Assembly: GCA_009784565.1 (NCBI GenBank)
Contig: WRBL01000014.1
Span: 1 to 42,137 of the forward strand
Source: Streptosporangiales bacterium
GTDB taxonomy: Bacteria; Actinomycetota; Actinomycetes; Streptosporangiales; Streptosporangiaceae
DNA: 42,137 bases
Direction of reading: 5' to 3'
The notes beneath the pieces are model-generated. The model saw nothing but the letters and a program-made list of their open reading frames with translations, was not told where the DNA came from and made no database searches. Below are positions 18,660-40,187 of the stretch, one piece after another (within the stretch, counting starts at the first letter, position 1; every line of letters starts with the position of its first letter). The position numbers and the translations under genes were made by a program.

Positions 18660-18977
18660 ATGACAGAGTCGGCCGCAGCAGCAAGCGCGCCCGAGGACCC
18701 CCCGAACAGAACAGGCAAGCACCCGATCGCCGCCCATCCCGTCGCATCGGCGATCATCACCGTTCTGGTGCTGGGAACAATCGTCTGCACGCTCGTGGAA
18801 CCGATCTACGGAAGCGTTTCCCCCAAGGTCGGCAGCTGGCCCTTCTTCTACGTCTACCTGCTGGCCTTCATGCCGGTCGTCGCGATCGCCTTGTGGATCG
18901 CGATGCTCCTGCAGCGCCGTCTGGCCCCCGCCGGCGGCACCACGAGCACCAGCGCGAGCACGGAGGACGGCCAGTGA
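18660..18977 (+). CDS. DUF3311-like small two-TM membrane protein (symporter partner)
   Basis: 105 aa; PKVGSWPFFYVYLLAFMPVVAIALWIAMLLQRRLA; 4-nt overlap with the downstream symporter. Confidence 0.87.
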   Translation: MTESAAAASAPEDPPNRTGKHPIAAHPVASAIITVLVLGTIVCTLVEPIYGSVSPKVGSWPFFYVYLLAFMPVVAIALWIAMLLQRRLAPAGGTTSTSASTEDGQ

Positions 18978-20635
18978 GCGGTGTGAACATGACGACGTTC
19001 TCCATCGTCGTCGTCCTCTTCGTCGTGGTCACCGTGGTCGGCTTCGCGGCGGCCCGCTGGCGCCGGGCCGAGGACATGCTCCACCTGAACGAGTGGGGCC
19101 TGGGCGGCCGCAGCTTCGGCACGTTCATCGCGTGGTTCCTCCTCGGCGGCGACCTCTACACCGCCTACACGTTCATCGCCGTCCCGGCGCTGGTGTACGG
19201 CTCGGGCTCGATCGGCTTCTACGCGGTCGCCTACACGATCATGGCGTTCCCGATCGCGTTCGTCTTCCTGCCGCGGCTGTGGTCGGTGTCGCGGATCCAC
19301 AATTACGTCACCCCGGCCGACTTCATCCGGGGCCGCTACGGCTCCAAGGGCCTGTCCACCGCCATGGCGGTTACCGGCATCCTGGCCCTCATGCCGTACA
19401 TCGCCCTGCAGCTGGTCGGCATCCAGGCCGTGCTCACGGTCATGGGCGTGCATATCGGCGGCGGCAGCGGCTGGATGAAGGACCTGCCCCTGTTCATCGC
19501 CTTCCTGGTGCTGGCGATCTACACCTACGTGTCCGGGCTCCGCGCCCCGGCCGCGATCGCCTTCGTCAAGGACACGCTGATCTACGTGTTCGTGATCGTC
19601 GCGGTCTTCTACATCCCGACGAAGCTCGGCGGCTGGGGTCACATCTTCGGCACGGTCCAGACCCACATGGCCTCGACCAGCCCGAAGACCGGCAAGCCGT
19701 TCGGCACCTTCGTCCCGTCCACCAAGTCCATCGGCTCCACCCAGTTCGACTTCGCCACCCTCGCCCTCGGCTCGGCCCTGGCGCTGTTCGTCTACCCGCA
19801 CTCGATCACCGGCGTGCTGTCCACCAAGCGCCGCGAGACCATCAAGCGGAACATGGCCCTGCTGCCCGCGTACTCGCTGCTGCTCGGCCTGATCGCCCTG
19901 CTCGGGTACATGGCTCTCGCCGACAAGACGACGGTGGCCCACGTCAAGGGGGCCAAGAACAACGCCCAGCTGGCGATCCCCTACCTGTTCCAGCACATGT
20001 TCCCGAGCTGGTTCACCGGCATCGCGTTCGCCGGGATCATCATCGGCGCCCTCGTGCCGGCCGCGATCATGGCGATCGGCGCGGCGAACCTGTTCACCCG
20101 CAACATCTTCAAGGAGTTCATCCGGCGGGACGCGACGCCGCGGACCGAGACGAGGGTCTCCCAGTGGGCGTCGCTGGTGGTCAAGCTCGGGGCGCTCTAC
20201 TTCGCGGTCGCGCTGCCCAGCACGTTCGCGATCAACCTGCAGCTGCTCGGCGGGCTGTGGATCCTGCAGATCTTCCCGATGCTGGTGGGCGGCCTGTTCA
20301 CCCGCTGGTTCCACAAGTGGGCGCTGCTCATCGGCTGGGCGGCCGGGATGATCTTCGGCACGATCGCGGCCTACAAGGTGTCCAGCCCGACCGCGTCGCA
20401 CTGGGCCGGGTCCTCGGACATCATCTGGGGCCACAGCGTCTACATCGGCTTCGCCGCGTTCGTCCTCAACGTGGTGATCGCGGTCGTGCTGACGCTGGTC
20501 TTCAAGGCGGTCAAGCTGCCTGAGGGCGCCGACGAGACCCAGCGCCACGAATACACGGCGGACCCGAAGCCGGAAGAGGTCCCGGTCCCCGTGGGAGCCG
20601 CCGCGGCCACGGCCACGGCCACAACAACCGAATAG
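18974..20635 (+). CDS. Sodium:solute symporter family protein (MctP-like), copy A
   Basis: NEWGLGGRSFGTFIAWFLLGGDLYTAYTFIAVPALVYGSGSIGFYAV; multi-TM SSS family features. Confidence 0.93.
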   Translation: MSGVNMTTFSIVVVLFVVVTVVGFAAARWRRAEDMLHLNEWGLGGRSFGTFIAWFLLGGDLYTAYTFIAVPALVYGSGSIGFYAVAYTIMAFPIAFVFLPRLWSVSRIHNYVTPADFIRGRYGSKGLSTAMAVTGILALMPYIALQLVGIQAVLTVMGVHIGGGSGWMKDLPLFIAFLVLAIYTYVSGLRAPAAIAFVKDTLIYVFVIVAVFYIPTKLGGWGHIFGTVQTHMASTSPKTGKPFGTFVPSTKSIGSTQFDFATLALGSALALFVYPHSITGVLSTKRRETIKRNMALLPAYSLLLGLIALLGYMALADKTTVAHVKGAKNNAQLAIPYLFQHMFPSWFTGIAFAGIIIGALVPAAIMAIGAANLFTRNIFKEFIRRDATPRTETRVSQWASLVVKLGALYFAVALPSTFAINLQLLGGLWILQIFPMLVGGLFTRWFHKWALLIGWAAGMIFGTIAAYKVSSPTASHWAGSSDIIWGHSVYIGFAAFVLNVVIAVVLTLVFKAVKLPEGADETQRHEYTADPKPEEVPVPVGAAAATATATTTE

Positions 20636-20670
20636 GCCGAACGGGCTGGCGGCACCCGCGCCGCCGCCGG

Positions 20671-20705
20671 AACGCCGCCGTGTCCTCTCCGGACACGGCG
20701 GCGTT
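20671..20705. terminator. Shared bidirectional terminator between convergent symporter modules
   Basis: Perfect 15-bp arms AACGCCGCCGTGTCC / GGACACGGCGGCGTT, 5-nt loop. Confidence 0.8.
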
Positions 20706-20714
20706 CGCTTTTCG

Positions 20715-22349
20715 TCAGTCGGAGGCCGCTCCCGCCGGAACCGGGGCCGGGGTGTCCGACGGGTCGGCGCGGTACTGATGCGGCAGGGTCTCGTCGGCGC
20801 CTTCCGGGGCCCTGACGGCCTTGAAGACCAGCGTCAGCACGACGGAGAGCACGACGTTAATGACGAGCGCGGTGAACCCGATGTAGACGCTGTGCCCGAA
20901 GACGATGTCCGACGAGTTCGCCCAGTGCGACTCCGTCGGGCTGGACACCTTGTAGGCCGCGACGGTGCCGAAGACCATCCCCGCCGCCCAGGCGATGAGC
21001 AGCGCCCACCTGTGGAACCAGCGGGTGAACAGGCCTCCCACCAGCATCACGAAGAGCTGCAGGATCCACACGCCGCCCAGCAGCTGCAGGTTGATGGAGA
21101 ACGTGTGCGGGAGCCAGATGGCGAACGCCAGAGCGCCGAACTTGACCACCAGGGAGGCCCACTGGGACACCCTGGTCTCAAGCCGGGCCGAGGCGTCCGG
21201 TTTGAAGAAGTCCTTGAAGATGTTGCGGGTGAACAGGTTCGCGGCGGCGATGGCCATGATCGCGGCCGGGACGAGGGCCCCGATGATGATCCCGGCGAAC
21301 GCGATGCCGGTGAACCAGCTCGGGAACATGTGCTGGAACAGGTACGGCACCGCGAGCTGCGCGTTGTCCGCCTTCTTGACTTCCCCGGCGGTGGTCTTGT
21401 CGGCGATGGCCATGTACCCGAACAGCGCGATGCACCCGAGCAGGACCGAGTAGGCGGGAAGCAGCGCCATGTTCCGCTTGATCACGTCACGCCGCCTGGT
21501 GGACAGCGCGCCGGTGATGGTGTGCGGGTAGAGGAACAGCGCCATGGCCGAGCCGATCGACAGGGTGACGAAGTCGAACTGGGTGGAGCCGGTGGACTTG
21601 CTGGTCGGGATGAACGTGCCGAACGGCTTCCCGGTCTTGGGGTTCGTCGACGCCATGTGCGTCTTCACCAGGCCGAAGATGTGCTCCCAGCCGCCCAGCC
21701 GGGACGGGATGTAGAAGATCGCCACGAGCACGAACACGTAGATCAGCGTGTCCTTGATGAAGGAGATCGCGGCCGGGGCCCGCAGCCCGGACACGTAGGT
21801 GAAGACGGCCAGGACGATGAACGCGACGAACAGCGGGATGTCCTGGACGTAGGGGTTGGACGCCCCGGCCGCGACGCCCATCACCGTCAGCACCGCCTGG
21901 ATGCCGACGAGCTGCAGCGCGATGTAGGGCATCAGCGCCAGGATGCCGGTGAAGGCCGCCGCCAGGGACAGGCCGCGGGACCCGTACCGGCCGCGGATGA
22001 AGTCCGCGGGCGTCACGTAATTGTGGACCCGGGACACCGACCACAGCCGCGGCAGGAAGATGAACGCGATCGGGAACACCAGGATCGTGTAGGAGACCGC
22101 GAAGAAGCCGATCGAGCCGGACGCGAAGACCAGGGCGGGGACCGCGATGAACGTGTAGGCGGTGTACAGGTCGCCGCCGAGCAGGAACCAGCCGATGAAC
22201 GTGCCGAACCCCCGGCCGCCGAGGCCCCATTCGTTGAGGTGCAGCATGTTCTCCGCGCGGCGCCAGCGGGCCGCGGCGAAACCGACGAAGGTGACGACGA
22301 GGAACAGGACGACGACGATGGTAAAGGTGACGGGGTTGACGTTGGTCAC
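20715..22349 (-). CDS. Sodium:solute symporter family protein (MctP-like), copy B
   Basis: Closely similar to copy A over most of its length (NEWGLGGRGFGTFIGWFLLGGDLYTAYTFIAVPALVFASGSIGFFAV...). Confidence 0.93.
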   Translation of the reverse strand: MTNVNPVTFTIVVVLFLVVTFVGFAAARWRRAENMLHLNEWGLGGRGFGTFIGWFLLGGDLYTAYTFIAVPALVFASGSIGFFAVSYTILVFPIAFIFLPRLWSVSRVHNYVTPADFIRGRYGSRGLSLAAAFTGILALMPYIALQLVGIQAVLTVMGVAAGASNPYVQDIPLFVAFIVLAVFTYVSGLRAPAAISFIKDTLIYVFVLVAIFYIPSRLGGWEHIFGLVKTHMASTNPKTGKPFGTFIPTSKSTGSTQFDFVTLSIGSAMALFLYPHTITGALSTRRRDVIKRNMALLPAYSVLLGCIALFGYMAIADKTTAGEVKKADNAQLAVPYLFQHMFPSWFTGIAFAGIIIGALVPAAIMAIAAANLFTRNIFKDFFKPDASARLETRVSQWASLVVKFGALAFAIWLPHTFSINLQLLGGVWILQLFVMLVGGLFTRWFHRWALLIAWAAGMVFGTVAAYKVSSPTESHWANSSDIVFGHSVYIGFTALVINVVLSVVLTLVFKAVRAPEGADETLPHQYRADPSDTPAPVPAGAASD

Positions 22350-22597
22350 TGGTCCGCCTCCCGGCCGGCAAGCCTGCGCTGCAGCAGCATGGTGATCCAC
22401 AGCACGATCGCGACGACCGGCATGTACGCCAGCAAGTAGAAGTAGAAGAACGGCCAGCTGCCGATCTTCGGCGTTTCGACAGCGTAGAGCGGGATCCAGA
22501 TCGTGAAGAATATCGTCGCCGTCAGCAGCAGGACGATGACGGCGGCGGTAACCGGATGGGCGGCGGCCGCGTTTCGGTGCTTGGTGGACTCGGACAT
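22346..22597 (-). CDS. DUF3311-like small two-TM membrane protein (symporter partner), copy B
   Basis: 83 aa; TPKIGSWPFFYFYLLAYMPVVAIVLWITMLLQRRLAG; same 4-nt overlap architecture as copy A. Confidence 0.87.
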   Translation of the reverse strand: MSESTKHRNAAAAHPVTAAVIVLLLTATIFFTIWIPLYAVETPKIGSWPFFYFYLLAYMPVVAIVLWITMLLQRRLAGREADQ

Positions 22598-32413: not shown

Positions 32414-33784
32414 ATGAGCGTTGAAGACCCCGAGACGTACCTGCGCCGCTTCGCCGAGACCCAGCTGCGCCGCCTGGCCGCCGGCGAGGTGACCGCCGCC
32501 GAGTGCGCGGCGCATGTCGACTCCGTCGCCGTGGCGTTCGAGGAAACCGGCGCCCTGGACGGCCAGGTCACGTCTCACGTTACCGAGCACCTGCATGTCG
32601 CACTCATGGCGCGGGCGACATCCCCGGGTTCGGGCCCGATGGGCCGCTCGGCCCTGCGCGGCAGGCCAGGGTTCGCGGATCTTTTCGCCCGCCAGCGCTC
32701 TCGGACTCAAGTGCCTGAAGGACCAACCGGGGAAGTCTCCGTCGTGCCTGCCACGGCGGCGCTCCATCTCAGGAAGGACGATGGCGACGAGGACATCTAC
32801 CTGCTGGGATACACCACCGTCCCGGGACGGGCCTGGCTCAGCGTAGCCGCCCGCACAAGTCAGCCGCTGGTTCCCCGCCGGCATGCTTCTCCCCCGTCAG
32901 CACGGAATCCGAGAGCGCTTCAGTCCAATCGCTACCGGCCCACGTTCGCTGGTGGCGGCATCGTCGCGATCGACGACACCGGGCGGGGGTACACCCTGGG
33001 TTTCGCCGGAGGCGGCGGTGACTGGTATATCGGCCGGCTGACACTCAATCCCGTCCCCGCGTCGGGTACCGCGTGGCTTGAAGTCCGGTGCGGCGGCGAG
33101 TCGGTGCGGCTTGACCTGCGGGCGAAATCGCCGGCCGCCGACGTGACGGTCCAGTCTCTGGCGGGTACCCCCGGCGAGAACTACCTCCGTCGTCAAGCCG
33201 AATCCTTGATCGGTTCCCCGGAGTCCGCCGAGGGCCCGCTCAGAGCCCGGGCAACCGGGCTATCCGACGCGGTGCCCGCGCTACGGGCTGTTGGCCTGCT
33301 GCCGCCAGACAGCCCCGTGCCGGGAGAGGTCGCGGCGCTCTTCGAATCTTTGGGAGGCCCAGGTGAGCTCATCGCCGTTCCCGGGAGATCGCCCGCACAG
33401 TGGGTGGCCGGGAGAGATTCGGAGTTTCCTCCCCAGACCAGCGTCACGGTCGCGGCGGGATCGCTGGCGGTGGCACTTCCTGAGGCCGACGGCGTAGCGG
33501 TGCACCTCACCGCGGTGCTGACCCGACCCGATGCGGGAACTTGGATCTTCGGGGGGATCCGGATGACCGCCGACAGCGGCGAGCCGGCCTTCTGGCTCCG
33601 CGACGACACAAATAGCTGGCATTCCGTTTCCGTCCGGGGCATGTCCGGCCAAGGCGGCGACTATGCGTTCCAGGCGGCGGTGGTACCTCCGCTCACGCCG
33701 GAGACCTCCCAGGTTGAGCTCCACGTGACGGGCAAGACCACAGAAGTGCGGGCCACTATCCCGGTTAGGTGGTGGCTCTCATGA
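32414..33784 (+). CDS. Hypothetical protein, first gene of polymerase/MoxR/vWA block
   Basis: 456 aa from MSVEDPETYLRRFAETQLRRLAAGE; no recognised motif; Gly/Thr/Val-rich, probably beta-rich C-terminal half; 4-nt overlap with next gene. Confidence 0.75.
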   Translation: MSVEDPETYLRRFAETQLRRLAAGEVTAAECAAHVDSVAVAFEETGALDGQVTSHVTEHLHVALMARATSPGSGPMGRSALRGRPGFADLFARQRSRTQVPEGPTGEVSVVPATAALHLRKDDGDEDIYLLGYTTVPGRAWLSVAARTSQPLVPRRHASPPSARNPRALQSNRYRPTFAGGGIVAIDDTGRGYTLGFAGGGGDWYIGRLTLNPVPASGTAWLEVRCGGESVRLDLRAKSPAADVTVQSLAGTPGENYLRRQAESLIGSPESAEGPLRARATGLSDAVPALRAVGLLPPDSPVPGEVAALFESLGGPGELIAVPGRSPAQWVAGRDSEFPPQTSVTVAAGSLAVALPEADGVAVHLTAVLTRPDAGTWIFGGIRMTADSGEPAFWLRDDTNSWHSVSVRGMSGQGGDYAFQAAVVPPLTPETSQVELHVTGKTTEVRATIPVRWWLS

Positions 33785-34677
33785 GCTGGCACAAGTCCCT
33801 GCCACCAGCGGAGGCATCCGTGTCCTGCGGGAAGGGGACGCACACCATCAGGTGGGAGGATGGGCAGCTGACGCTGTCCGATCACCCCGACGCGGAGGCG
33901 GAGCTGGTGCTGGGCGCTCTCGGCGGCGACAAGCCCGAGTGCCTGACGCTGCTCGAAACCTGGAACGCACACACTGCTGACCTCGCCGTGCTGGCGGTCG
34001 GCCCGCGCGCGGCCAGCGACCGCACCACGATCACCTGGGAACAGCTCGGCGAGGCTCCGCTTCCCCCCTCGCGGCCCCGGCCCAGACCCCGCGCTTCGAG
34101 CTTCACGGGCGGCCAGGGCTACGCGATACCGAGCGGGAAGAGAGCCACCGCCAAGACGGTCATGGTCGGAACGGGCGCGGTCTCGCCCCGGAAATTTCTG
34201 GCCGCGGCGGAGAACGCTGACCCCGAACTTGCCCGGCGGGCACGGAAACGAGTGGAACTGCTGGAACTGATGACCCTCGGGCCGGAGTTCCAGTACCGGC
34301 TGAGCGGGGCGGTGGCCGCGTCCTGGGCGGGCGAGGATCGCGCCGGGGAACGGGCGGAGCGCCGCCCGGAACTGGCGGCCGCCCTGACCGGGCGGTTCGC
34401 CCCCGTCGCGGCCGAATGGGCCGGCATCGACCCGGACGCGGTCACCGTCACCCCGCACGAGGGGCCGGGCTGGGGCCGCCTGGAGGTTACCGGCGACGGG
34501 CGGCTCGCCGGAGCTCTCCCGGTCTCCTGGCTGGCGGAGGTGTGGGCTTGCGGGCTGGCCCTGGCCGACGGGCACCTGGTCGTCAGCGTCACCGGACCCG
34601 GCCATCCCCGGGCCCGGGTCCTGGCCCTGCCCGCGCCAGGCGCCTCCGCTGTCCCGCTTGAGGTTGATCGCTGCTAA
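33781..34677 (+). CDS. Hypothetical protein, second gene of the block
   Basis: 298 aa from MSWHKSLPPAEASVSCGKG; no recognised motif; translationally coupled to the preceding gene. Confidence 0.75.
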   Translation: MSWHKSLPPAEASVSCGKGTHTIRWEDGQLTLSDHPDAEAELVLGALGGDKPECLTLLETWNAHTADLAVLAVGPRAASDRTTITWEQLGEAPLPPSRPRPRPRASSFTGGQGYAIPSGKRATAKTVMVGTGAVSPRKFLAAAENADPELARRARKRVELLELMTLGPEFQYRLSGAVAASWAGEDRAGERAERRPELAAALTGRFAPVAAEWAGIDPDAVTVTPHEGPGWGRLEVTGDGRLAGALPVSWLAEVWACGLALADGHLVVSVTGPGHPRARVLALPAPGASAVPLEVDRC

Positions 34678-34686
34678 ATTCGGAGC

Positions 34687-36357
34687 GTGCGCGGCGAGCT
34701 TGCCGGTATCGCGGTGGCACCGGACGGGACCGTGGCCATCGCCCCGGGCGGCGCCGGCCCCGGCGGGCACAGTCCCGGGCGGATCATGACCATCGCGGAG
34801 GCCGGCGCCTACGATGAGGCGTTCCGGCCCCGGTGGGCCACCTGGTCCCAGGCGACGGCCCGGCGACTGATCGCGGGCGGCGTCCGGGTCTCGACCTGCT
34901 GGGACGTCGCCGCGGTGCACCGCCTGGCCCACGGCGGGCTCCGGGCCGACCCCGGGTACGTCTGGGCCGGCCTGCGCGGGCTCCCCCTGGACAAGGTCCC
35001 GGCCACGGGGGCCGAACCGGACCTGTTCAGCTCGCTGGAGGAGACCGGCGAGCCCGCCGGGGCGGACGGGCACCTGCGGCCGGAGTGGACGCGCGGCGGC
35101 TGGGCCCGCACCCCGGGAACCGTGGCGGCCTGGGCCGCTCTCGCGCTCCAGGCGGCCGAGCTTCAGCGGCAGGCACTCGGCGGCGGCAAGGCGGGCGATG
35201 CCGGGGCAGCGACGATCCGTTCGGAATCGACGGTTGAGCTTCTGTGCGCGGAACTGGCCGCGGACGGGCTCCCGGTCGACCGGGCCGCCGCCGAGAACCT
35301 GCTGTCGGCCATCGCGGGGCCGCGGCCCCGCGACGAGCGGGACGCCGCCGCCATCCGGGCCCGGCGGGACGCCGTCGTGCTCCGGCACGCGCCCGCCGGA
35401 GCCAGCGCCGACCTGCGCAGCCCGGGCCAGGTCAGGACACTGCTCGCCGCGGCCGGGATAGACGTGCCCGACACCCGGGCCCACCGGCTGGAAGAGTTCT
35501 CCTCCTCCAGCCCGCTGGTCGCGGCGCTGCTGGAATGGCGCAAGGCCGAGCGGATCTCCACCACCTACGGCTATTCCTGGCTCGACTCCCACCTCGGCGA
35601 CGACGGACGCCTGCGCGGGGAATGGACCGGGTGCGACGGCGCCGCCGGGCGGATGACCGCCTCCGCCGGGCTGCACAACATGCCCGCGGTCCTGCGAAGG
35701 GCCGTGATCGCCGACGAGGGGCACGTGTTCGTCCGGGCCGACCTGGGGCAGATCGAGCCGCGCGTGCTCGCCGCCGTGTCCGGCGACCGGGCCCTGGCCG
35801 CGGCCACCCGGGCCGACGACATGTACCAGCCGGTCGCGCGGGAACTGGGCGTGGACCGGCCCGTGGCCAAGGTCGCGATGATCGCCGCGATGTACGGGCA
35901 GACCACCGGGCACGGCGGAGCCGCCGCCCGGCGGATGCGGCAGGCCTACCCGGTGGCCATGGGCTACCTGGACCGGGCCGACGCCGAAGCCCGCGCGGGC
36001 CGGGACCTGCGCACCTACGGCGGGCGGCTGGTGCGGATGGCCAGCGGCGGGACCCCGGCCCAGGTCGCGGGCCGGGGCCGGTACGGGCGCAACGCGCTGA
36101 TCCAGGGGGCGGCCGCGGAACTGTTCAAGATGTGGGCGGTGACCGTACGATCGCGCGGTCAGGCGCTCGGTGCCGAAATCGTGATGTGCCTCCACGACGA
36201 ACTGCTGGTGCACGTGGCCTCCGAGAAGGCGGAAGCGGCGGCGCGGCTGGTCGCGGACTGCCTGGACGAGACCGCCCGCTGGTGGACGCCGCGCGGAAAC
36301 GTGCGGTTCATCGCCGACATCGCCGCCGTCCGGTGCTGGGCAGACGCGAAGGGCTGA
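34687..36357 (+). CDS. Family-A DNA polymerase-like protein (actinobacterial 'bifunctional 3'-5' exonuclease/DNA polymerase' family), GTG start
   Basis: Motif A VRADLGQIEPRVLA, motif B RPVAKVAMIAAMYGQTTG, motif C CLHDELLVHV. Confidence 0.9.
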   Translation: MRGELAGIAVAPDGTVAIAPGGAGPGGHSPGRIMTIAEAGAYDEAFRPRWATWSQATARRLIAGGVRVSTCWDVAAVHRLAHGGLRADPGYVWAGLRGLPLDKVPATGAEPDLFSSLEETGEPAGADGHLRPEWTRGGWARTPGTVAAWAALALQAAELQRQALGGGKAGDAGAATIRSESTVELLCAELAADGLPVDRAAAENLLSAIAGPRPRDERDAAAIRARRDAVVLRHAPAGASADLRSPGQVRTLLAAAGIDVPDTRAHRLEEFSSSSPLVAALLEWRKAERISTTYGYSWLDSHLGDDGRLRGEWTGCDGAAGRMTASAGLHNMPAVLRRAVIADEGHVFVRADLGQIEPRVLAAVSGDRALAAATRADDMYQPVARELGVDRPVAKVAMIAAMYGQTTGHGGAAARRMRQAYPVAMGYLDRADAEARAGRDLRTYGGRLVRMASGGTPAQVAGRGRYGRNALIQGAAAELFKMWAVTVRSRGQALGAEIVMCLHDELLVHVASEKAEAAARLVADCLDETARWWTPRGNVRFIADIAAVRCWADAKG

Positions 36358-36402
36358 TACCGTTACGGACAGCTGAATTCTGGTCGGGAGGGGGCTGCAC
36401 GC

Positions 36403-37125
36403 GTGCCGCGCTACCGCAGGGTCGTCGTCAAGCTGAGCGGCGAGGCTCTGGCCGGGGCCTCCCAAAGCGGAGCTGACCCGGCCAGTCTTGCCCGTGTTGC
36501 CGATGAGGTGCTGTCACTGCACGACATCGGCGTCCAGGTCGCCGTGGTCGTCGGCGGCGGGAATTATTTCCGCGGGCGGATGGCCGAGGGCTGGGGCATC
36601 AGCCGGGCCGAGGCCGACAACATCGGGATGCTCGCCACCGTCATGAACGGGCTTATGCTGCGCGGTGCGCTCACCGCGCGGACCCAGGCCGACGTGCGGG
36701 TGATGACGGCGATGCCGATCACCAGCGTGGCCGAGCCGTTCATCCGGCTGCGGGCGGCGGGTCACCTGTCCCGGGACAAGATCGTCGTCTTGGCCGGCGG
36801 CATCGGCCAGCCCTACGTGACCACGGACTACCCGGCGGTGCAGCGGGCGCTCGAGCTCGAAGCCGACGCGCTGCTGGTTGCCAAGCACGGGGTGGACGGC
36901 GTGTACGACTCCGACCCGAAGACCAATCCCGACGCGAAGCGCTTCTCCACGCTCACCTACGACGAGGCCATCTCCTCCGACATCCGGGTGATGGACACCA
37001 GCGCGTTCGTGCTCGCGAACGAGCAGGGGCTGACCATGCACCTGTTCGACGTCGCCGCGAAGGGCATCATGCGCGGCATCTGCGAGGGCCAGGAACTGGG
37101 CACCCGGATCACCGCCAAGGGCTGA
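36403..37125 (+). CDS. UMP kinase (PyrH-like; amino acid kinase family), GTG start
   Basis: RVVVKLSGEALAG, VAVVVGGGNYFRGRMAEGWGISRAEADNIGMLATVMNGLML, HGVDGVYDSDPKTNPDAKRF. Confidence 0.92.
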   Translation: MPRYRRVVVKLSGEALAGASQSGADPASLARVADEVLSLHDIGVQVAVVVGGGNYFRGRMAEGWGISRAEADNIGMLATVMNGLMLRGALTARTQADVRVMTAMPITSVAEPFIRLRAAGHLSRDKIVVLAGGIGQPYVTTDYPAVQRALELEADALLVAKHGVDGVYDSDPKTNPDAKRFSTLTYDEAISSDIRVMDTSAFVLANEQGLTMHLFDVAAKGIMRGICEGQELGTRITAKG

Positions 37126-38252
37126 TGACCGGACACTCTTCCGCGAAGGCGCTCGGCGTCGCGGTGGCGGCGCGGGTCCCGGTGCTGCTGTGGGGCGCGC
37201 CCGGCACCGGAAAGACTTCCGCCATCCGGGCCATGGCGTCGGCCATGGGACTGCACTGCGAGACGGTGATCGCGTCCATCCGGGAGCCTTCGGACTTCGC
37301 GGGACTGCCGGTCATCGCCGGGGATGCCGTTCCCGGGGCGTCCGGGGGAGCTCTTCCCGGGGTACACCTCGCGCCGCCCCGGTGGGCACAGCGGCTGGCC
37401 GAGACCGGCACCGGCGTCCTCTTCCTCGATGAACTGTCCACGGCCCCGCCCGCGGTCCAGGCCGCGCTGCTGCGGGTCGTCCTCGAACGGACCGTCGGCG
37501 ACCTCGCGCTCCCCGACGACGTGGCCGTTGTCGCCGCCGCGAACCCTCCCGAGCAGGCCGCCGACGGCTGGGATCTGTCCGCGCCGCTGGCCAACCGGCT
37601 GTGCCACCTGAGCTGGGAGACCACCCCGGCCTCGATCGCCGACGGCCTCGCCTCCGGCTGGGACGCCCCGCCGGTCCCGTCGTTGCCGTCTGACTGGGAA
37701 GCGGGCGAGGTCGCGGCCCGGGGGCTGGTCGCCGCGTTCCTGCGCGTCCGGCCCGCCCTCGCGCTGGCCCCGCCGGCCGACGCGGATGCCGCGGGCCGGG
37801 GCTGGCCCAGCCCGCGCACCTGGGAGATGGCGGCCCGGCTCCTGACCGCCGCCGACGCCTCCGGGGCGGGCGAAGAGGTCCGGTCGGCGCTGATCCTGGG
37901 CGCGGTCGGCGAGGCCGCAGGCGTGGAGTTCCTGACCTGGCTGGCCGACATGGACCTGCCCGACCCGGAGAAGGTCCTGGCCGACCCGGCGTCGTTCACG
38001 CTGCCCGAACGAGGCGACCGGGCCTACGCGGCGCTGGCCTCGATCGCCGCGGCCGTCGCCACGGATCCCACGGCCGACCGGTGGACCGCCGCCTGGAAGG
38101 TCCTGGGCGACTGCGCGGAGACCGCGCCCGACGTGGCCGCGACCGCCGCTGTCGTCCTGGCCAAGTGCAGGCCCCCGGACCTGCCCGCCGGGCAGATGCC
38201 GCCGGAGATCAGGCTCTTCCTGCCGCTGATTCGCGACGCCGGCCTGGCCTAA
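37125..38252 (+). CDS. MoxR-like AAA ATPase
   Basis: Walker A LLWGAPGTGKTSAIRAMA, Walker B VLFLDELSTAPPAVQAALLRVV, sensor VVAAANPPEQAADGWDLSAPLANRLCHL; 1-nt overlap with upstream gene. Confidence 0.92.
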   Translation: MTGHSSAKALGVAVAARVPVLLWGAPGTGKTSAIRAMASAMGLHCETVIASIREPSDFAGLPVIAGDAVPGASGGALPGVHLAPPRWAQRLAETGTGVLFLDELSTAPPAVQAALLRVVLERTVGDLALPDDVAVVAAANPPEQAADGWDLSAPLANRLCHLSWETTPASIADGLASGWDAPPVPSLPSDWEAGEVAARGLVAAFLRVRPALALAPPADADAAGRGWPSPRTWEMAARLLTAADASGAGEEVRSALILGAVGEAAGVEFLTWLADMDLPDPEKVLADPASFTLPERGDRAYAALASIAAAVATDPTADRWTAAWKVLGDCAETAPDVAATAAVVLAKCRPPDLPAGQMPPEIRLFLPLIRDAGLA

Positions 38253-38254
38253 CC

Positions 38255-39436
38255 GTGGGCTCGGATCTCCCTGGCCTGGGGCCGGCCAGGCTGTGGGCGG
38301 CGCGGAAGTTCCCGTACCTGGCGACCGGGCTGTTCGGAGCGCCGGTGACGGCGGATCCGGGCAGCGGCACGGTCTCGGTGGACCGGCGCTGGCGGATGCT
38401 GGCCGACCCGGACCTGACCGCGCGATGGTCGGCGGCCGAACTGGGCAGCGTCCTGGTGCATCACGTCTGCCACCTGATCCGGGACCACTCCGGGCGGGCG
38501 TCGGCCCTGGGCGTCGGCCCGCCGGAGTCTCCCCGGTGGATCCGGGCCGCGGACGCGGAGATCAACGACGACCTGATCCCGGCGGGGCTGGAGCTTCCCG
38601 GTTCGCCGGTAACGCCCGCGGACTTCGGGGCCCGCGAGGGGAAACTGGCCGAAGAGTACTTCGAGATGCTGGGGCAGGCCCGGGTCGTCCCTTCTCCGTC
38701 GGCCTGGTTTGACTGCGGGTCCGGGGCGGACGGGCGGCATCAGGACGGACCCGGCGACGAGGACGGGCTGAGCGACGCTCAGGCGGACCTGCTGCGGCGG
38801 CAGGTCGCCCGGGACGTCGCGCGAGCCGGACGGGAACCCGGCGCCGTGCCGTCCGGGCTGCTGCGCTGGGCCCGGGACGTACTGTCACCCCAGGTCGACT
38901 GGCGGCGCCTCCTGGCCGCCGAACTGCGGCGCGCCGTGGCCGATGTCGCGGGCGCGGCCGACTATTCCTACCGGCGGCCCTCCCGGCGGGCGCCGTCGTC
39001 CCCGGCGGTGGTGCTGCCGGCGCTGCGGCGGCCGGTGCCGGAACTCGCGGTGGTCTGCGACACCTCGGCGTCGATGACCCCCGAACTGCTCGAGATGGCC
39101 CTGGCCGAGGTGTCGGGCCTGCTGCGCGGGCTGGGCCTGGCCCGGCGGCTGCGGGTGCTGGCCTGCGACACGGCGGTGGGCCCGGCGCAGCGAATCACGA
39201 AGGCCCGGGAGGTGACGCTGTTCGGCGGCGGCGGCACGAACATGGGCGCGGGCATCGCCGCCGCCTCGGCGCTGCGGCCGCGACCGTCGGTCTGCGTGGT
39301 GCTGACCGACGGGTACACCCCCTGGCCGGGCCAGGCACCGCGGGGCATGCGCGTGATCGCCGGCCTGCTCGGCCCCGACGCCCCGGACGCCCCGCCCTGG
39401 GCCCGGGCGGTACGCGTCACGCCCGATCACCCGTGA
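38255..39436 (+). CDS. vWA domain protein with DUF2201-like metallopeptidase-type N-terminal region, GTG start
   Basis: VLVHHVCHLIRDHSGRA (HEXXH-like but HHVCH); MIDAS DTSASM and VVLTDGYTPWP in C-terminal vWA domain. Confidence 0.88.
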   Translation: MGSDLPGLGPARLWAARKFPYLATGLFGAPVTADPGSGTVSVDRRWRMLADPDLTARWSAAELGSVLVHHVCHLIRDHSGRASALGVGPPESPRWIRAADAEINDDLIPAGLELPGSPVTPADFGAREGKLAEEYFEMLGQARVVPSPSAWFDCGSGADGRHQDGPGDEDGLSDAQADLLRRQVARDVARAGREPGAVPSGLLRWARDVLSPQVDWRRLLAAELRRAVADVAGAADYSYRRPSRRAPSSPAVVLPALRRPVPELAVVCDTSASMTPELLEMALAEVSGLLRGLGLARRLRVLACDTAVGPAQRITKAREVTLFGGGGTNMGAGIAAASALRPRPSVCVVLTDGYTPWPGQAPRGMRVIAGLLGPDAPDAPPWARAVRVTPDHP

Positions 39437-40187
39437 GCAGTTCCCTGGACCTCTGAATCACCCTCTGCAGCTGGCCATCCGCCGTCTCCAGGCTGAACAG
39501 GGGCGTCACCCCTACCCGGGCTCGCGGGAGCGGCTCGATTTTCTCCCGGAGAAACAGGGTCAGGCTGAAGGTAGGCTCCGGCAGCGGGTCGATGTCCACC
39601 CAGCAGACCTGCTCGAACGGGCTGGCGAGCCGGATCCGGACCGGCCCGTGCATGGACCGGTAATCGGGTGACCCCGGTATCCGCAGGTCACGATTCTCGT
39701 AGTCGCCGCGGCCCGCGCCGATCGCTTCCAGCATGAACGTCATCCGCTCAAGTGCTTCCTCGTCGTCCGCGGCCACCGCGATCTCCAGGGTTTCCACCGG
39801 GACGGGCACTCCCTGCAGGGCCGCGGCGGCCGCGCCCTCAACGACGAACGGGATCCCGTCGAAGAGCGAGAAGTACGCGGCGGCGTCAGTCCCCCAGCCG
39901 GCGACGACATCGGTGAGCGGCCGCCCAGCCCCTTGCCTGATCACGTCATCGACGTCGGCGAACTGCGGCTCCGTCTCCAGATGCAGCCTCAGTCCCATCG
40001 ATCGAAGCACCCGGTCAACCAGGTCCAGCGTCGAGGCACGCCGACCGAGCTCAAGCTGGGAGATGGTCGTAGAGCTCACCCCGGCCATCTCGGCCAGGGT
40101 CGTTTGACTCAGAGCGCGTCCCTCGCGCTCGGCTCGAAGCACTTCCGCGACGCGATCCGCTGACCGGTCATCCTTGATACTGGCCAC
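39417..40187 (-). CDS. XRE-type HTH protein fused to a degenerate nucleotidyltransferase-like domain
   Basis: HTH LSQTTLAEMAGVSSTTISQLELGRRASTLDLVDRVLRSMGLRL; VVEGAAAAALQGVPVPVETLEIAVAADDEEALERM resembles an NTase core; overlaps the convergent vWA gene by 20 nt. Confidence 0.8.
   Translation of the reverse strand: MASIKDDRSADRVAEVLRAEREGRALSQTTLAEMAGVSSTTISQLELGRRASTLDLVDRVLRSMGLRLHLETEPQFADVDDVIRQGAGRPLTDVVAGWGTDAAAYFSLFDGIPFVVEGAAAAALQGVPVPVETLEIAVAADDEEALERMTFMLEAIGAGRGDYENRDLRIPGSPDYRSMHGPVRIRLASPFEQVCWVDIDPLPEPTFSLTLFLREKIEPLPRARVGVTPLFSLETADGQLQRVIQRSRELLTGDRA

Follow-up and report, generated by a model that had tools for sequence, protein, structure and literature searches.

Gene organization of the block

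The window, the whole stretch of 42,137 nucleotides from a Streptosporangiales bacterium that was analysed here, contains six adjacent genes on the plus strand between positions 32,414 and 39,436. They encode P1 (32,414-33,784, 456 aa), P2 (33,781-34,677, 298 aa), the family-A DNA polymerase POL (34,687-36,357), UMPK, a paralogue of the housekeeping UMP kinase (36,403-37,125), a MoxR-like AAA+ ATPase (37,125-38,252), and VWA, a protein with a DUF2201 metallopeptidase domain and a VWA domain (38,255-39,436). P1, P2, MoxR and VWA are referred to below as the quartet, and POL and UMPK are inserted together as a unit between P2 and MoxR.

A previous sequence-only reading of this DNA described six co-directional genes with junctions of -4, +9, +45, -1 and +2 nt. 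All six ORFs were found again, and all five junctions were exact. The reading took the compact block as probably one transcript; the tightness was confirmed, and the six genes are probably co-transcribed. Its pairing of MoxR with a vWA protein was upheld, as were the two coupled unknown proteins, which proved to belong to new families, and the family-A polymerase of actinobacterial type (DNA_pol_A, E = 1e-30, with features of PolA2/APEX). The VWA domain was also confirmed, but the metallopeptidase domain of the same protein (DUF2201_N) had been overlooked. The terminator hairpin reported upstream was confirmed as a hairpin, not as a terminator: a perfect 16-nt inverted repeat with a 14-nt loop (32,320-32,335/32,350-32,365, no strand assigned) lies 48 nt 5' of P1, but its tail is only TTT and the terminator scan made no call. 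The repeat is possibly the terminator of the CBS gene or a regulatory hairpin.

All six genes were found in the same order at locus L120 and also at L114, where the block is cut by contig ends, while the contig of L138 begins inside POL and continues with UMPK-MoxR-VWA (genes in relatives were called with a simple custom script). Because the order recurs in these other assemblies, it is real, and an assembly chimera was rejected.

Two other features of the window were observed. A gene on the minus strand (39,417-40,187), coding for a protein with a HipB/Y4mF-like antitoxin HTH and a C-terminal part without a known match, is convergent with the VWA gene and overlaps its 3' end by 20 bp. At 18,660-22,597, two similar transporter-like pairs, each made up of a protein of about 550 aa and a short membrane protein, are oriented toward one another, apparently as an inverted duplication.

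The MoxR and VWA proteins

In the MoxR-like AAA+ protein, Walker A, Walker B and the arginine-finger region are conserved, and Walker A starts at residue 24, leaving little sequence ahead of it. The VWA protein matched DUF2201_N (125.3 bits) and DUF2201 (66.3 bits), both over the cut-off. MoxR was adjacent to VWA in all 20 relative loci examined, and the VWA protein was present in 34 of 121 genomes of the order, with the window's own genome counted. Upstream of MoxR-VWA in most relatives, P1-P2-POL-UMPK is replaced by an ankyrin-repeat-like protein, often after LRR-like and SDR-like proteins; these labels are our own reading of the sequences. The set of SDR-like, LRR-like, ankyrin-like, MoxR and DUF2201 VWA genes recurs at L074, L077, L078, L084, L086 and others of L071-L088, and it seems to be a sister system of the quartet. 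The window's MoxR and DUF2201 VWA proteins are 45-55% identical to the ankyrin-linked orthologues (L074-L086).

The metallopeptidase motif separates the two kinds of VWA protein. In the alignment, HExxHxxxxH was whole in 18 of 18 ankyrin-linked relatives. The window protein has HHVCHLIRDH, in which the catalytic Glu is missing, and Glu was replaced by His or Leu in all 11 window-type proteins, for ten of which P1 and/or P2 was directly seen. The three His of the motif were kept in these proteins, and DAEINDD and the MIDAS residues of the VWA domain were kept wherever the sequences covered them. Since the general base is lost, the peptidase domain of the window-type VWA protein is predicted to be dead.

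A third type of MoxR-VWA locus was also noticed (L089, 1,467-4,632; L090, 615-3,888). There HGxxH replaces HExxH, with Gly at the position of Glu, and a helical-repeat-like protein of about 250 aa lies downstream, with neither P1-P2 nor the ankyrin protein.

P1 and P2

Searches of P1 and P2 against Pfam, NCBIfam and PADLOC gave no noteworthy match. We define them here as two new protein families, which are tied to MoxR-VWA machines.

The AlphaFold2 model of P1 (pLDDT 78.6) contains helices at residues 6-69, strands at 109-248, helices at 253-334 and strands at 347-455, and comparison of the P1 profile with itself detected an internal duplication (E = 1.5e-6). P1 as modelled is thus a tandem duplicate, in which a helical bundle and a beta-sandwich occur twice. 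In the fold search 3fbq alone scored under E = 0.001; its TM-scores were low, and it was disregarded. Within the quartet P1 diverges most, with 27-31% identity to relatives beyond the closest one, against about 70% for MoxR. Its GC3 is 77.5%, compared with 91-93% in the genes from POL to VWA. A recent acquisition of P1, which the low GC3 might indicate, was rejected, as P1 is syntenic across related genomes.

The N-terminal domain of P2 has invariant C16, H21, H35, C54 and H64. In profile comparison this domain matched (E = 2.1e-6) a segment of the ankyrin protein that precedes MoxR in relatives. Because the domain is common to P2 and a protein beside MoxR, P2 is independently tied to MoxR-VWA machines. 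Profile comparison detected no relation of P1 to the ankyrin protein or to P2. The structure model of P2 was poor, too poor for use, and its fold search gave nothing significant.

Distribution of the quartet

Searches with P2 in POL-bearing genomes led to four loci, L151-L154. There P1-P2-MoxR-VWA stands at the same place in the chromosome, with P1 following hisN and, if there is one, CBS, and neither POL nor UMPK interrupts the four genes. The contig of L152 stops inside MoxR, and the VWA gene of that genome is on another contig. L153 has POL about 3 kb past VWA, and the genomes of the other three loci carry it on a different contig.

A profile search with P2, whose sensitivity drops with distance, gave five further strong cases among the 394 other genomes of the class. 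P1-P2 adjoin MoxR-VWA in four of them (G242, G261, G321, G359), and in G219 the order is MoxR-VWA-P2. Quartet genes sit beside MoxR-VWA in genomes of families f19 and f15, and in f19 the quartet occurs without POL-UMPK between its genes. A search of the order for P1 covered 120 genomes besides the window's own and found none.

When POL-bearing genomes were tested with both P2 and VWA as queries, both were present in six (G121, G125, G126, G127, G128 and G138) and both were missing from the others. The one exception was G137, where VWA is present on a contig that begins past the position of P2. This shared presence and absence, together with the quartet without inserted POL-UMPK at L151-L154 and in f19, indicates that P1-P2-MoxR-VWA is, as judged by gene content, a conserved unit that is gained and lost as a whole.

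POL and UMPK

DNA_pol_A was the sole domain detected in POL, and polymerase motifs A, B and C were intact in the alignment. No exonuclease domain was detectable, either by domain search or among full-length PDB matches, which start at residue 259 or later; a vestigial exonuclease region is present. POL therefore has a family-A core, lacks a FEN-like 5'-3' exonuclease and carries an inactive 3'-5' exonuclease region, as in PolA2/APEX. A clamp-like EPDLF lies at residues 110-114, in the loop where 11 of 11 canonical relatives have QxxLF. In these points POL resembles the actinobacterial polymerases described as PolA2/APEX, whose predicted role is mutagenic repair with low fidelity (PMC12926913). 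A match of POL to RTasPolA of PADLOC ran through the polymerase core only and was set aside.

Deep relatives of POL (L129, L132, L135, L137, L139-L141) have GQLDLL in the vestigial exonuclease loop, near the classic clamp-binding motif, which suggests that APEX comprises two subclades differing in their clamp motif. One locus with an actinobacterial-type POL (L134, 8,827-10,590) is in a MAG titled Thermoanaerobacterales; the label is probably wrong or the contig is contamination.

UMPK matched TIGR02075 with 273.5 bits (cut-off 243.9), has the conserved kinase motifs in the alignment, and is by sequence a member of the PyrH family. A second pyrH was found in the same genome on contig C9, with neighbours that we take from their sequences to be frr, tsf and rpsB. 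Since the C9 gene sits with these genes, the window's UMPK is the paralogue.

Scanning for POL gave 29 loci of the close subtype, from Trebonia-like genomes to Acidimicrobiia. POL-UMPK between P2 and MoxR was limited to one Trebonia-like clade, and POL-UMPK occurred without the other four genes in L115, L116 (Trebonia kvetii) and L122. No P2 and no intact VWA were detected in these three genomes. An absence is less secure in a MAG, as several genomes of the study are; the T. kvetii genome is 9.3 Mb and comes from a named strain. In the maximum-likelihood POL tree, one clade (support 100/97) held the window, L156 (= L114), L116, L122, L115, L155 (= L120) and L136, and within it members with and without the quartet were interleaved. 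In L136 the contig ends inside POL, which P1-P2 do not precede, and the genome lacks VWA. A search for quartet remnants in L116, L122 and L136 gave none. In L115, an N-terminal fragment of P1 precedes POL and two short fragments of VWA follow UMPK. Because these fragments flank POL-UMPK, the ancestor of L115 very probably carried the full block, lost the quartet and retained POL-UMPK. An economical history would be a single insertion of POL-UMPK between P2 and MoxR, followed by repeated loss of the quartet.

These results bear on the proposal of the sequence-only reading that the six genes form one module for repair, nucleotide stress or defence. In such a module UMPK would feed a pyrimidine pool and MoxR/VWA would load or remove the polymerase. 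The block is tight and co-directional in four related genomes, and POL belongs to a group predicted for mutagenic repair, both as such a module would have it. The reading also stated that failure of the other genes to co-occur with the polymerase elsewhere would speak against it, and this is largely what the survey gave: the quartet occurs without adjoining polymerase and UMPK in L151-L154 and f19, POL-UMPK occurs alone in L115, L116 and L122, and L115 shows the loss of one half with retention of the other. PADLOC called no complete system in the block, and searches for P1 and P2 in plasmids and for P2 and POL in viral contigs came back empty, giving the block no tie to viruses or plasmids. 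We consider a single six-gene module very improbable.

Whether POL and UMPK are themselves a true functional pair, with the kinase supplying or clearing a nucleotide for the polymerase, is a narrower question. The two stayed together after loss of the quartet in L115, L116 and L122, inside the 100/97 clade, as expected from such a pair. However, the association is limited to that one clade, most POL genes lack a neighbouring UMPK, and in G104, G106 and G125 the two genes lie apart. Moreover, the product of UMP kinase is UDP rather than a dNTP. A functional pair is thus unlikely.

Proposed function

We rather favor the view, with moderate confidence, that the block consists of a MoxR-VWA remodelling machine (P1-P2-MoxR-VWA) and a separable POL-UMPK pair that was inserted into it. 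MoxR would be an ATP-driven ring and the VWA protein a co-chaperone holding a client, and P1 and P2, as dedicated adaptors or clients, would make the machine specific. The metallopeptidase domain, predicted to be dead, would serve as a metal- or peptide-binding scaffold, so that the machine would refold or assemble rather than cleave. POL and UMPK would share the transcript by position, and their function need not be shared with the quartet. If so, sharing of an operon does not imply shared function here, as the two halves were gained and lost separately, which corrects an assignment by guilt of association.

Some functional link between the quartet and POL may remain. Against a full separation, the distance between POL and the quartet in L153 is about 3 kb, and the four f19 genomes with P2 also have a window-type POL, unlinked. 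As evidence for a link, the presence of POL in P2 genomes was set aside as weak against the background: of the 394 other class genomes, 61 have window-type POL. P2 was not detected in 57 of these, and the four with P2 all belong to one genus.

Alternatively, the quartet could serve in conflict (immunity) as one of the MoxR-vWA ternary systems, with P1 sensing an invader, MoxR-VWA acting as the switch and the dead peptidase domain as a decoy or scaffold. The fast divergence of P1 relative to MoxR would agree with this, and inactive peptidase domains have been described in ternary conflict systems. The block, however, has no VMAP, iSTAND, FtsH or beta-propeller component and no effector domain, and P1 and P2 have no PADLOC match. 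The quartet also keeps one chromosomal position in related genomes, unlike mobile defence genes. We therefore judge an immunity function to be improbable.

The same stability of gene order and locus would suit a housekeeping-like assembly chaperone for one protein or metal complex, of the CoxD/CoxE type, whose client would be P1 or P2. A role as assembly chaperones is known for MoxR-vWA pairs, and the metal-site His residues are kept in VWA. However, no metalloenzyme gene is linked, and the quartet is rare in the class and repeatedly lost. This explanation is doubtful, if somewhat less so than immunity.

Beyond the remodelling machine that we favor, a more speculative and rather unlikely extension is that the quartet is a kind of MoxR-vWA system not described before. 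Its pseudo-metallopeptidase would be a metal-dependent client-binding module and P1/P2 a fast-diverging sensor-adaptor pair, and capture of an APEX polymerase with UMPK would tie it to mutagenic repair in one clade.

Comparison with known systems

Chaperone pairs of MoxR and vWA proteins are a precedent for the machine proposed here (PMC7159879), and one of them has a metallopeptidase-vWA fusion (PMC7824862). The first of these sources describes MoxR-vWA ternary conflict systems, with VMAP, iSTAND, FtsH and beta-propeller components, in which inactive peptidase domains occur. The quartet resembles them in its MoxR-vWA core, in a further dedicated and fast-evolving protein and in the inactive peptidase domain, but it lacks the defining third component, and its VWA carries DUF2201_N without a C-terminal effector. 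No VMAP third component was found upstream of MoxR, where P1 and P2 stand; MoxR has no extra N-terminal region of the VMAP type (WxhapG, PsWRxa); and no beta-propeller is fused to the vWA protein, which consists of DUF2201_N and DUF2201 only. The window's MoxR passed the bpMoxR model narrowly and with a partial match (28.3 vs 27 bits). The quartet falls outside the VMAP type by these marks, though it may work like a VMAP system.

A MoxR AAA+ protein is also paired with a metallopeptidase-vWA fusion in group 2.2 jumbo phages (PMC7824862). The likeness is in the two genes, one for MoxR and one for the metallopeptidase-VWA fusion. The window's system differs in being chromosomal and actinobacterial, in the loss of the metallopeptidase Glu and in the additional P1 and P2, and the window protein is matched weakly by phage proteins (29% identity, 39% coverage).

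POL shares with PolA2/APEX (PMC12926913) the family-A core, the lack of the 5'-3' exonuclease, the vestigial exonuclease region and a clamp-motif-like sequence in the same loop. It differs in forming a separate subclade with 31-36% identity to canonical relatives in the order, in having EPDLF instead of QxxLF, and in its UMPK neighbour.

The SDR-LRR-ankyrin-MoxR-VWA sets (L074-L086) are like the quartet in their orthologous MoxR and DUF2201 VWA proteins and in the ankyrin protein with the N-terminal domain of P2, but HExxHxxxxH is intact in them, and P1, full-length P2, POL and UMPK are lacking. The ankyrin-linked machines with the intact motif and the P1-P2 machines with the dead motif form a natural contrast, by which the role of the peptidase domain becomes directly testable.
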